This document shows, piece by piece, positions 19,846 through 22,204 of a stretch of 64,000 nucleotides of DNA; position 1 is the first letter of the stretch; each line of letters opens with the position of its first letter. Below the pieces are notes generated by a model that did no database searches, was not told where the DNA came from, and saw only the letters and a program-made list of their open reading frames with translations. Source of the stretch: Streptomyces sp. CC228A (GTDB lineage: Bacteria; Actinomycetota; Actinomycetes; Streptomycetales; Streptomycetaceae). Position numbers and translations under genes: made by a program. Where the stretch lies: NCBI RefSeq assembly GCF_021390935.1, contig NZ_JAJPUI010000001.1, positions 434,001 to 498,000 on the forward strand, read 5' to 3'.

Positions 19846-20118
19846 TTGCAGACGAGACTTGCAAGCAGGGAGACCACCGCGCCGACCCCGTGGGGGCTGC
19901 GCCGTATGGCGCCGCTGCGCAACGGTTCCCCCTCGTCGTGGCAGTACGCGGGCCTCGACCCGGCCACGCAGACCGGCCGATGGATCGGCGAGGACGGAGC
20001 GATGACGCCGGCCGAACTGGGCAAGCACGGCACGAGCGTGAACACCTACCCGCCCACGCAGGTCAGCAAGGACGGCAAGCAGGACCCCGACTCCGGCCAC
20101 GACGCGACGCAGGACTAA
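19846..20118 (+). CDS. tgmA: Graspetide precursor (putative ATP-grasp-modified RiPP)
   Basis: A 90-residue precursor of an ATP-grasp-modified peptide. TTG 19846 is chosen as start because AAGGAGG lies five bases upstream and no other in-frame start precedes the conserved leader. The leader has TPWGLRRMAP (14-23) and GLDPATQTGRW (36-46), the recognisable blocks of the family's precursors. The core, about 60-90, contains Thr63, Ser64, Thr67, Thr71, Ser74 and Lys75 as possible nucleophiles and Asp76, Asp80, Asp82, Asp86 and Asp90 as acceptors. Asp76 is followed by Gly, a context favouring aspartimide formation. The ligase gene starts 12 bases downstream. Ring pattern cannot be told from sequence. 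Confidence 0.85.
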   Translation: MQTRLASRETTAPTPWGLRRMAPLRNGSPSSWQYAGLDPATQTGRWIGEDGAMTPAELGKHGTSVNTYPPTQVSKDGKQDPDSGHDATQD

Positions 20119-20130
20119 GGAGGGAGCGTC

Positions 20131-21090
20131 ATGGACGGACGCCCGGTGCTGGTCTGCACAGAGTTGGAGGACGCAACCGCCGATCTGGTCATCGCCAAGT
20201 TGAACCGGCGCCGGGTGCCCGTCCTCCGGTTCGACCCGGGGCGCGACTTCCCCGCGCCTGCGATGCTCGCCGCGCGTCTCGGCGCAGGCGGCTGGGAAGG
20301 GCGGCTGACAGTCGGGGAGCGCACGGCCGATCTGTCTGCCGTACGTGCCCTGTACCACCGTCGGCCGAGCCCCTACCCGACGAGTAGCAACGAGCAGGCG
20401 GCCAGATTCGCCGCCCAGGAGAACCGGCGCGGCCTGGGCGGCGTGTTGGGTGCACTGTCGGGGTGCCTGTACCTGAGCCACCCGCACGCCATCGCACGGG
20501 CCGAGTACAAGCCCGCGCAGCTCGACACGGCGACACGAGTGGGACTCACGATCCCGGCCACGCTGATCACCAATGATCCGGTGGAGGCCAAGGCGTTCTG
20601 TGCCGCACAGCCGACGATCTACAAGCCCTTGCACGCGGGGGCGTACGAGGTCGAGGGCGAGCCCGCCGGCATCTGGGCCGCCCCGGTCGAGGTAGGGGAG
20701 ATCGACGGCGGGGTGAGCCACAGCGCCCACCTGTTTCAGGCTCAGGTGCCGAAGGTGGCCGACGTGCGCACGGTGGTCGTCGGCGAGCAGGTGTTCAGCG
20801 CCCGCATCACGGCGCCGCCCGGGGTCGTCGACTGGCGAGCCGAGTACCAGAGCCTCGCCTACGAGCCGATCACCTGTCCGGACGGGATACGCAGGGCACT
20901 GCTGCGGTTCCTCGCCGACTTCGGCCTGAACTTCGGCGCCTTCGACTTCGCGGTGACCGCGGACGGTGCATGGTGGTTTCTGGAGTGCAACCCCAACGGC
21001 CAATGGGCGTGGCTCGAAGACGCGGCCGGACTGCCGATCACACACGCAATCGCAGACCTGTTGGAGAACGGAGCGAGCCAGCATGACTGA
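20131..21090 (+). CDS. tgmB: ATP-grasp ribosomal peptide maturase (graspetide synthetase)
   Basis: A 319-residue ATP-grasp ligase of the SAV_5884-like peptide maturase family. It activates Asp/Glu side chains of the precursor core as acyl phosphates and joins them to Ser/Thr/Lys to form lactone or lactam rings. Visible blocks: N-terminal PVLVCTELEDATADLVI, ALYHRRPSPYP (about 72-82), DTATRVGLTIPATLITNDP and TIYKPLHAGAY (nucleotide-binding, with Lys), QAQVPKVADVRTVVVGEQVF, and the Mg-binding LNFGAFDFAV plus FLECNPNGQWAWLE near 290, the ATP-grasp end motif. The ATG at 20131 follows AGGAGGG. It overlaps the methyltransferase by 8 bases, showing a single operon. Confidence 0.92.
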   Translation: MDGRPVLVCTELEDATADLVIAKLNRRRVPVLRFDPGRDFPAPAMLAARLGAGGWEGRLTVGERTADLSAVRALYHRRPSPYPTSSNEQAARFAAQENRRGLGGVLGALSGCLYLSHPHAIARAEYKPAQLDTATRVGLTIPATLITNDPVEAKAFCAAQPTIYKPLHAGAYEVEGEPAGIWAAPVEVGEIDGGVSHSAHLFQAQVPKVADVRTVVVGEQVFSARITAPPGVVDWRAEYQSLAYEPITCPDGIRRALLRFLADFGLNFGAFDFAVTADGAWWFLECNPNGQWAWLEDAAGLPITHAIADLLENGASQHD

Positions 21091-22204
21091 CCCCCTGCCG
21101 TCGGAACACCTCCGGGCCGACCTAGCGCGGCGCCTGGCCAAGTCGGGCGCCCTGCACAGCCCGGAATGGGAAGCGGCCGTCATGGCCGTACCCCGTGAGG
21201 CGTTCCTCGCGCGCGGATGGTTCGAGTACGAGGACGGCGGCTGGTACCGCCCGGCGACGGGAAGCGCAGCGGCCGGACTCGCGCGCATCTACGAAGACGA
21301 CACCCTCGTGACGCAGGTGGCGGGCAGCGTCTTTCCCGACCAGGTCGAGGGACGTATCGCCGCGGCCCCGTCCTCGTCGTCCACCCTGCCGAGTCTCGTC
21401 GTGCGGATGCTCGAAGACCTGCGGGCGACCGAGGAAACGCGCGTACTGGAGATCGGCACGGGCACGGGCTACTCAACCGCGCTCCTGTGCCATGTCGTCG
21501 GCGAAGACAACGTGACCACGGTCGAGGTGGACGCGGAAGTGTCCGCGCGCGCCGGAATGGCCCTCGCGGGCGCCGGGTACTGGCCTACGCGCGTGGTCGG
21601 CGACGGCCTCGCGGGCTACAAGGAGGGCAGCCCGTATGACCGGGTGATCGCCACGTGCAGCGTGCGCACCGTGCCCGGCGACTGGCTCGCACAGACCCGG
21701 CCCGGTGGTGAGGTCCTGGTCACGGTCGGCGGATGGATGCACGCATCCGAACTCGTCCGGCTGACGGTCGCCGACGACGGCACGGCCAGCGGCCCGGTCC
21801 TCGGCGGACAGGTCTCGTTCATGCTGGCCCGCCCCCACCTTCCGCCCCCGCTGGGCATCCTGCCGAACCTCAGCGAGGGCGACGCAGCGCCCGCGGAGCT
21901 GGGCGCGGATGTGCTCGACGACTGGACCGCCCGGTTCGTCGCACAGTTTGCCGCACCGCGCGCACAGCGGCTCACACTGGAACGCGACGGCCGGACGGAA
22001 CACGTTGTGATCGACGTGGACGCCGAGACGTGGGCGGTCGTCTTCCTGGACGGCGGACGGTGGATGGTCCGGCAGGGCGGCGCGGCGCGTCTGTGGGACG
22101 AGATCACCGAGCGTGTCACGCACTGGCAGGCGGACGGGCGCCCGTCGGCCGACCGCATGCGGCTGCACGTCGGCCCCGACGGGCAACGCCTCACCTGGGC
22201 GTAA
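21083..22204 (+). CDS. Protein-isoaspartyl-methyltransferase-like enzyme of the graspetide operon
   Basis: A 373-residue SAM-dependent O-methyltransferase of the PIMT/PCMT type that accompanies ATP-grasp peptide maturases. The core contains PREAFLARGWFEYE, the SAM-binding VLEIGTGTGYSTALL (about 120-135), TTVEVDAEVSARA (motif II acidic loop) and YDRVIATCSVRTVPGDWL. The roughly 150 extra residues after the fold are longer than in repair PIMT and probably bind the leader or modified core. Related enzymes in imiditide-type graspetide clusters methylate a core Asp, which then cyclises to aspartimide; that is the likely role here. The ATG at 21083 lies inside the ligase stop region. Confidence 0.88.
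   Translation: MTDPLPSEHLRADLARRLAKSGALHSPEWEAAVMAVPREAFLARGWFEYEDGGWYRPATGSAAAGLARIYEDDTLVTQVAGSVFPDQVEGRIAAAPSSSSTLPSLVVRMLEDLRATEETRVLEIGTGTGYSTALLCHVVGEDNVTTVEVDAEVSARAGMALAGAGYWPTRVVGDGLAGYKEGSPYDRVIATCSVRTVPGDWLAQTRPGGEVLVTVGGWMHASELVRLTVADDGTASGPVLGGQVSFMLARPHLPPPLGILPNLSEGDAAPAELGADVLDDWTARFVAQFAAPRAQRLTLERDGRTEHVVIDVDAETWAVVFLDGGRWMVRQGGAARLWDEITERVTHWQADGRPSADRMRLHVGPDGQRLTWA

Follow-up and report, generated by a model that had tools for sequence, protein, structure and literature searches.

What does a cell make from a small precursor peptide whose gene is followed, in one operon, by genes for an ATP-grasp ligase and a methyltransferase? The question is raised by three genes, here called A, B, and M, in a 64,000-nucleotide stretch of the 6.86-Mb genome of Streptomyces sp. 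CC228A (contig NZ_JAJPUI010000001.1, positions 434,001 to 498,000; hereafter the window, in whose numbering coordinates are given unless another contig is named). As a whole, the locus is best explained as a graspimiditide operon, and we consider it very probable that nested esters, likely three, are closed in the precursor, after which Asp76 is converted to an aspartimide. Judged from its sequence, A-B-M is a group 13 graspetide (graspimiditide) operon, of a kind that has already been described.

Gene content, family assignment, and distribution

Genes A (19846..20118), B (20131..21090), and M (21083..22204) all lie on the plus strand. A encodes a 90-residue graspetide precursor (TIGR04186, 51.4 bits, cut-off 25; PF14408, 44.1 bits, cut-off 25); it starts with TTG, has AAGGAGGAGACC 5' of the start, and ends with TAA. 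After a 12-base gap, B begins with ATG at 20131 and encodes a 319-residue ATP-grasp graspetide synthetase (TIGR04187, 397.8 bits, cut-off 350; PF21068) with the motif FLECNPNGQ at 20977-21003. M, which overlaps B by 8 bases and begins with ATG at 21083, encodes a 373-residue aspartyl O-methyltransferase resembling protein isoaspartate O-methyltransferase (PIMT) and carrying an extra C-terminal domain (TIGR04188, 425.1 bits, cut-off 380), with the S-adenosylmethionine motif VLEIGTGTGYS at 21443-21475. All three products exceed the curated cut-offs of the NCBIfam triple TIGR04186/04187/04188, with scores well outside the range of chance. The preliminary description of this DNA had proposed a tight plus-strand precursor/ligase/methyltransferase operon with this spacing, had pointed to both motifs, and had read the genes as a graspetide operon; its coordinates were correct throughout, and the three family matches bear out the reading.

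B scored 36.9 bits against the RimK-family model, far under the cut-off of 143.4, and 152.3 and 164.6 bits against the microviridin ligase models MvdC (cut-off 425) and MvdD (cut-off 475), so it is not of the microviridin type. The nearest solved chain is 9bou (E 7.4e-48). The AlphaFold model of M has a mean pLDDT (predicted local distance difference test) of 91.4, and its best Foldseek match is the Thermotoga PIMT 1dl5 (378 alignment columns). M also contains the W-x3-G-x-P motif, as WQADGRP (22124..22144, plus strand), in which W348, G352, and P354 are invariant among 23 aligned sequences. This motif and the extra C-terminal domain are marks of PIMTs associated with ribosomally synthesized and post-translationally modified peptides (RiPPs) (PMC13001092). 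In imiditides and type I pamtides the methyltransferase is the sole modifying enzyme, whereas here an ATP-grasp gene lies immediately upstream of M. The preliminary description had assigned M to the aspartimide-forming methyltransferases by comparison with imiditides; the class holds, and graspimiditides are the apt comparison, since imiditides have no ATP-grasp enzyme (PMC13001092). The locus shows the group 13 features together: the precursor family, a maturase-subfamily ligase, a PIMT homologue, an RPFG-like leader motif, and nestable Thr/Ser and Asp residues around an Asp-bearing loop.

The precursor family is widespread: TIGR04186 passes its cut-off in 142 of the 199 Streptomyces species that were sampled. 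The branch to which the window belongs, defined by its ligase, was searched for in 392 species, with thresholds of E <= 1e-130 for the ligase and E <= 1e-15 for the precursor. The branch ligase was present in 19 species and the branch precursor in 18; both occurred in 17 genomes, adjoining in all 17, and 20 genomes held either. In the two ligase-only genomes (G359 and G060), the locus scan also detected no precursor beside the ligase, and one genome (G096) had only the precursor at the thresholds used. Two checks had been proposed beforehand, on whether precursor and ligase co-occur and on whether the ligase groups with non-peptide ATP-grasp enzymes. Neither refuted the graspetide assignment, in view of the 17 adjoining pairs in the first case and the TIGR04187 and RimK-family scores in the second. 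The suggestion that the product may be new has to be toned down: NCBI already lists these genes as a named family triple, the precursor family occurs in most Streptomyces species sampled, and four members have been characterised (PMC13001092). No description of the product of this branch was found in the accessible literature, and pieces of the core sequence used as literature queries gave no match.

The host genome has three TIGR04186 matches, one of which is the window operon. The second precursor lies on contig C11 with its own ligase and methyltransferase (L120). The third, a GRASP_targ precursor at C23:253283-254399 (L003/L121), has beside it a ligase in two overlapping frames, which reflects a frameshift or a sequencing error; no methyltransferase was found near this precursor.

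Core peptide and predicted ring pattern

An alignment of 76 precursors (the window and 75 homologues) divides the product of A into a leader of residues 1-60 (19846..20025, plus strand) and a core of residues 61-90 (20026..20115, plus strand; HGTSVNTYPPTQVSKDGKQDPDSGHDATQD). Mean pairwise identity was 0.84 in the core vs 0.60 in the leader; at the sequence level, such a fixed core argues for one conserved target over a rapidly diversifying weapon. The leader carries P-W-G at residues 15-17; the alignment has letters at this site for 67 precursors, and 58 of them share the motif. RPFG is the leader recognition motif of ThfA (PMC13003496), and P-W-G appears to be its counterpart, although the preceding residue in the window is not Arg.

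Near the middle of the core, Asp76-Gly77 (20071..20076, plus strand; Asp in 75 of 76, Gly in all) is the predicted methylation and aspartimide site at the tip of a hairpin, and Asp-Gly is the modification site in all four characterised graspimiditides (PMC13001092). On one side lie the predicted donors Thr63, Thr67, and Thr71 (20032..20058, plus strand; Thr or Ser in 76, 76, and 75 of 76), and on the other the predicted acceptors Asp82, Asp86, and Asp90 (20089..20115, plus strand; 76, 75, and 76 of 76), both series with a spacing of 4. A further residue, Asp80 (20083..20085, plus strand), is invariant in the 76 precursors and yet appears to be an orphan acceptor: among 69 distinct cores, 65 have V, I, L, or Q at its mirror position, residue 73, and four have T or S there. 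Ser74 and Thr88 are unlikely donors because they vary among the precursors. Since 13 of the 76 precursors continue past Asp90, an essential link to the C-terminal carboxylate is also unlikely, and a side-chain-to-C-terminus ester like that of SsfA was set aside on this ground. One clade precursor, P0034, has a duplicated KDG tip (QVGKDGKDGKVD) and a loop longer by three residues. Searches of Protein Data Bank chains with the precursor and core returned no meaningful match, the four matches from one of these searches (E 0.42-1.6) being unrelated.

The donors and acceptors follow an antiparallel register. When Thr63 is numbered core position 1, the two positions of each pair, 1/28, 5/24, and 9/20, add up to the same total. 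In precursor numbering (Thr63-Asp90, Thr67-Asp86, and Thr71-Asp82) this total is 153, which puts the tip precisely at the Asp76-Gly77 junction. This register was tabulated for 105 distinct cores (70 from the window clade, 12 of the NPSDG family, and 23 others); the reading in the L026 frame, which has no core, was dropped from the counts, and the 31-residue core of P0034 was excluded from the pair table. The mirror residue of the acceptor was Thr or Ser in 92 of 94 instances in the other cores, in 47 of 48 in the NPSDG cores, and in 212 of 278 in the window clade, the last corresponding to three of four pairs. In the main Streptomyces family, the pairs 1/28, 5/24, 7/22, and 11/18 were Thr-Asp in 15 or 16 of the 16 distinct 28-residue cores, with a single Ser-Asp exception, and further group 13 cores from the retrieved loci had the same geometry with four matched pairs. 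In the window clade, the main-family pair 7/22 is swapped for 9/20, donor and acceptor together, and we read this joint shift as sequence covariation that supports the pairing. The clade rule gives a 10-residue loop, as reported for fuscimiditide and amycolimiditide (PMC12291112), and the spacing of Thr67, Thr71, Asp82, and Asp86 is identical to that of Thr3, Thr7, Asp18, and Asp22 around the 10-residue loop of fuscimiditide (PMC12291112). Because Asp80 is without a matched donor while related families keep four pairs, the product of the branch is predicted to contain three esters and a tip aspartimide. For residues 61-90, the computed monoisotopic mass is 3181.418 without modification, 3127.387 with three esters, and 3109.376 when an aspartimide is added to these; a peptide with four esters and no aspartimide would have this last mass as well. 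The earlier view that the product could not be predicted from sequence thus holds only in part, the register making it partly predictable.

By analogy with characterised relatives, the P-W-G motif would recruit B, which would use ATP to phosphorylate Asp side chains for attack by Thr hydroxyls. Rings would then close outward from the loop, in the order Thr71-Asp82, Thr67-Asp86, and Thr63-Asp90, likely three in all, with Asp80 retained and lacking an in-register partner, as its conservation suggests, and the C-terminal carboxylate unused. In SsfA, the methyltransferase acts only on a peptide whose rings have all been closed and takes the Asp through a methyl ester and an aspartimide to isoaspartate (PMC10787088). 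M would likewise recognise only the ring-closed hairpin, with no need for the leader, and would methylate Asp76 at the tip; loss of methanol would give the aspartimide, and hydrolysis of the latter would likely yield mostly isoaspartate. General cell enzymes would remove the leader and export the product, and the regulator encoded upstream likely controls expression.

Several observations weigh against this ring pattern. For the window core alone, the register shuffle was not significant (p 0.065), and a second, looser register test gave p 0.25, or 0.09 with centring. The slide control was weak: in the clade, offsets of 4 scored 0.67 and 0.66 vs 0.76 for the register, and in Thr-rich cores of the main type they gave 63/66 and 70/71, matching the 92/94 of the register. 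The NPSDG family alone separated well in this control (47/48 vs at most 37/48). Moreover, the rule gives innermost loops of 6 to 9 residues in the main Streptomyces family; characterised graspimiditide loops are stated as 10-12 residues (PMC12291112), so the rule may not describe every ester. Amycolimiditide forms no later ester without the innermost one (PMC13003496), which means that in a clade without the innermost donor, ring closure must begin one pair further out. One homologue, P0036, lacks both Asp76 and Asp86. Finally, a fourth ester could form at Ser64, which 75 of the 76 precursors retain.

This last point underlies the alternative that survives best, in which four nested esters (Thr71-Asp80, Thr67-Asp82, Ser64-Asp86, and Thr63-Asp90) around an 8-residue loop would use all conserved hydroxyls and aspartates. 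The invariance of Asp80 and the four nested esters of amycolimiditide (PMC13003496) are in keeping with it. However, these pairs are out of register, with sums of 151, 149, 150, and 153, their loop is shorter than the 10-12 residues of characterised members (PMC12291112), and conservation of this Ser is incomplete elsewhere, the residue being G in 4 of 23 other cores. We therefore hold four esters to be possible, if unlikely. An arrangement of three esters with a Lys75-Asp80 amide, a lactam around the Asp76-Gly77 tip that would substitute for the innermost Thr-Asp ester, would account for the loss of Thr at 73 alongside the retention of Asp80. Lys75 is present in 75 of 76 precursors, the sole member without it (P0075, with His75) is among the three with Thr73, and some other graspetides use Lys as a donor (PMC13097080). 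Yet this is a single counter-example, and the other Thr73 members, P0049 and P0061, also carry Lys75, which could instead aid methyltransferase binding or aspartimide chemistry; in addition, the cross-links described in the four graspimiditides are Thr-Asp esters (PMC13001092). The lactam is consequently quite improbable in our estimation.

A sigma-70 scan, poorly suited to Streptomyces, found no promoter-like site, as would be expected if the operon were decaying or silent and gave no product; against this, the frames are open, the motifs are intact, ribosome-binding sites are present, and the core is more conserved than the leader across the 76 sequences, which makes silence very improbable. 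That M is a housekeeping isoaspartate-repair PIMT and a chance neighbour of the graspetide pair can practically be dismissed: it has a PCMT domain over the PF01135 cut-off (88.0 bits), but it reaches the cut-off of TIGR04188 and not those of the repair PIMT equivalogs TIGR00080 (67.1 bits, cut-off 159) and PRK00312.1 (91.1 bits, cut-off 188), and an M homologue adjoins the ligase on its 3' side in all 19 clade genomes.

Regulator cassette and neighbouring elements

Four plus-strand genes precede the operon. The first (17252..18460) encodes a 402-residue regulator with an XRE-type helix-turn-helix (HTH; HTH_3, 26.7 bits) and tetratricopeptide repeats (TPR), whose structure model has a mean pLDDT of 92.8. 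It is followed by a gene for a 161-residue small protein that weakly resembles serine-resolvase N termini (18555..19040; PF00239, E 0.0012, under the gathering score), a gene for a DUF7848 protein of about 91 residues with a GTG start at 19037 (19037..19312; PF25232, 51.1 bits), which accompanies the cassette in part of the loci, and a gene for a 117-residue small protein (19312..19665), whose reading frame had no NCBIfam or Pfam match.

The regulator was found in 24 of the 392 species (E <= 1e-120), and all 24 loci, the window included, were inspected. The small resolvase-like partner adjoined the regulator in 21 of them. The cargo downstream was a window-type operon in five loci (the window, L103, L104, L105, and L141), one of two kinds of pamtide-like locus in five and two, respectively, and neither in 12, one of which lies on a 3.5-kb contig. 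In all five loci of the first pamtide-like kind (L126, L127, L128, L135, and L138), the small partner gene and a PIMT-like methyltransferase gene flank a short gene for a Gly/Asp-rich peptide (GNPQDDSDSGNKHGGGGSDEGGN...), and there is no ATP-grasp gene; the methyltransferases of three of these loci were scored and gave 325-333 bits against TIGR04188, under its cut-off of 380. The other two loci, L125 and L133, have a Gly/Lys-rich peptide gene (GTGKGGxGGDGKHxGGKDPGT...) and a methyltransferase, one of the two methyltransferases being in two pieces. In L133, the methyltransferase gene is apparently split by an inserted stretch (3438-4208 and 6715-7020), and the peptide gene is intact. By their gene content, these two-gene peptide/methyltransferase loci without an ATP-grasp gene fit type I pamtides as described in PMC10787088, and the five with a Gly/Asp-rich peptide are likely type I pamtides or imiditides.

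On average, a genome has about 13 matches of the TIGR04188 type (250 over 19 genomes). From this density, a chance neighbour within 6 kb is expected in an estimated 2 of 100 loci, vs 12 of 24 seen, figures that are uncorrected for genome kinship. Flanking genes were compared for 23 of the 24 regulator loci, the 3.5-kb contig (L129) being excluded. They were common within L128/L135/L138 and within L125/L133, each group with the same cargo, within L132/L136, which have no cargo, between L105 and L122 (operon vs none), and partly between L123 and L126, in different order; by this test the remaining loci shared none upstream. On the downstream side, two small genes are common to L104 and the window, and two genes far off are common to L139 and L140. 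The 12 cargo-bearing loci fall in 9 upstream contexts, which disfavours a fixed chromosomal hotspot as the sole cause of the link. Co-transfer of regulator and cargo is the favoured explanation on this comparison, and joint mobility without functional coupling could also account for the pattern. L122 (in G080) shares its site with L105 (in G266), including flanking genes on both sides, and has no operon; its regulator contains an internal stop and its partner gene is truncated.

The regulator is not general for the clade, being present in 5 of its 19 loci. In L106 only the partner gene is visible, at a contig edge; L108, L109, L110, and L116 encode a distant HTH-TPR-like protein (60-74 bits), and some other clade loci carry genes that we take to be of the DUF397 type (KSSYS pattern). 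The regulator model consists of an HTH and a TPR solenoid, and its fold matches include ComR, PlcR, PrgX, Rap, NprR, and AimR; for unrelated, generic TPR proteins of eukaryotes the match is equally good or better, and a family missing from these lists was not taken as excluded. A peptide-sensing role, as suggested by the model, is thus a lead, not a result. Taken further, an RRNPP-like regulator common to graspimiditide and pamtide loci might read a peptide with an aspartimide or isoaspartate tip, here the three-ring hairpin that has lost its innermost ester and has Asp80 free or in a Lys75-Asp80 lactam, and the operon would then form half of a peptide-sensing circuit; we regard this as a long shot. 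If true, it would give aspartimidylated peptides their first signalling role, and for the first time a ring-closed RiPP of Streptomyces would have a receptor of this kind. Literature queries combining pamtide or imiditide names with regulator terms gave 263 matches, and none of the best 15 held those names.

The Pfam scan took in 17 proteins of the operon and its surroundings (13.9 to 27.5 kb), a selection of the open frames. The preliminary description had seen neither a dedicated protease nor an exporter beside the operon. The exporter part stands, as none was recognised among these proteins; the protease part needs a qualification, because a C39-like peptidase is encoded on the minus strand (25684..26853; PF13529, 99.1 bits), 3.5 kb downstream of the operon. 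Because the loci retrieved for comparison contain no homologue of this peptidase, a dedicated role is unlikely; in many of these loci, the sequence stops less than 6 kb from the operon. It was rejected as the leader peptidase on account of its strand, its distance, its absence from the compared loci, and the end of the leader, ELGKHG, which lacks a double glycine. Among the graspimiditides, none is known to have a native protease (PMC12291112), so an operon without a dedicated protease next to it follows the norm.

The gap upstream of A contains a 16-nt inverted repeat (94%; 19671..19733, plus strand) that is kept in many loci also carrying the 19312-19665 gene, with no convincing compensating changes by eye. 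Directly after M, a perfect 14-nt inverted repeat (22229..22270) may mark the transcript end; it has no T run and is not among the terminator-like matches. A short GntR-type regulator gene (22275-22616) is convergent to the operon and retained beside it in some relatives. A defence function received no support, since PADLOC gave weak matches only (M to mad2, E 1.2e-11, through the methyltransferase core).

Comparison with known systems

Two features of the locus open it to tests. The predicted natural change in cross-linking, with a donor lost and Asp80 invariant, allows the number of rings and their order of closure to be tested against the strict inside-out sequence reported for amycolimiditide, and the occurrence of one regulator cassette with two chemically different classes of methyltransferase peptides makes peptide function testable with reporters. 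The literature sections covered name no natural function for graspimiditides.

In the four characterised graspimiditides, the number of Thr-Asp esters ranges from two to five, and the loop carries the methylated Asp, which is followed by Gly (PMC13001092). Fuscimiditide (ThfABM, Thermobifida fusca) shares with the window the A-B-M gene set, the Thr-x3-Thr-x10-Asp-x3-Asp stem-loop with its 10-residue loop, and the loop aspartimide (PMC12291112). It has two esters, to which the window would add a third in-register pair, Thr63/Asp90, and the invariant loop residue Asp80, and its leader motif is R-P-F-G instead of P-W-G. Amycolimiditide (AmdABM) and albusimiditide (Streptomyces albidoflavus J1074) are, like the window peptide, members of group 13 with Thr-Asp esters and a methylated loop Asp (PMC13001092). 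Amycolimiditide has four esters vs the three predicted here, a comparison made by description, not by core alignment, and the main Streptomyces core keeps Thr at the position that is mostly V or I in the window clade. SsfA(BM) of Streptomyces sp. F-3 likewise has an A-B-M set, an Asp-Gly site, and four Asp residues in its last 12 residues (PMC10787088). However, it has five esters, one proposed to involve the C-terminal carboxylate, whereas relatives of the window peptide can run on beyond the last Asp.

Imiditides and type I pamtides share with the window the methyltransferase clade and reaction, and the same XRE-TPR cassette stands beside pamtide-like loci; unlike the window, they lack an ATP-grasp enzyme, and their substrate is linear. 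The RRNPP regulators (ComR, PlcR, PrgX, NprR, and Rap) resemble the window regulator, by fold only, in combining an XRE-type HTH with a TPR solenoid, Rap itself having the TPR part without an XRE-type HTH. Set against these systems, the window operon belongs, on sequence grounds, to a described family and would represent a branch with a distinctive predicted cross-link pattern and a regulator cassette common to a second peptide class.

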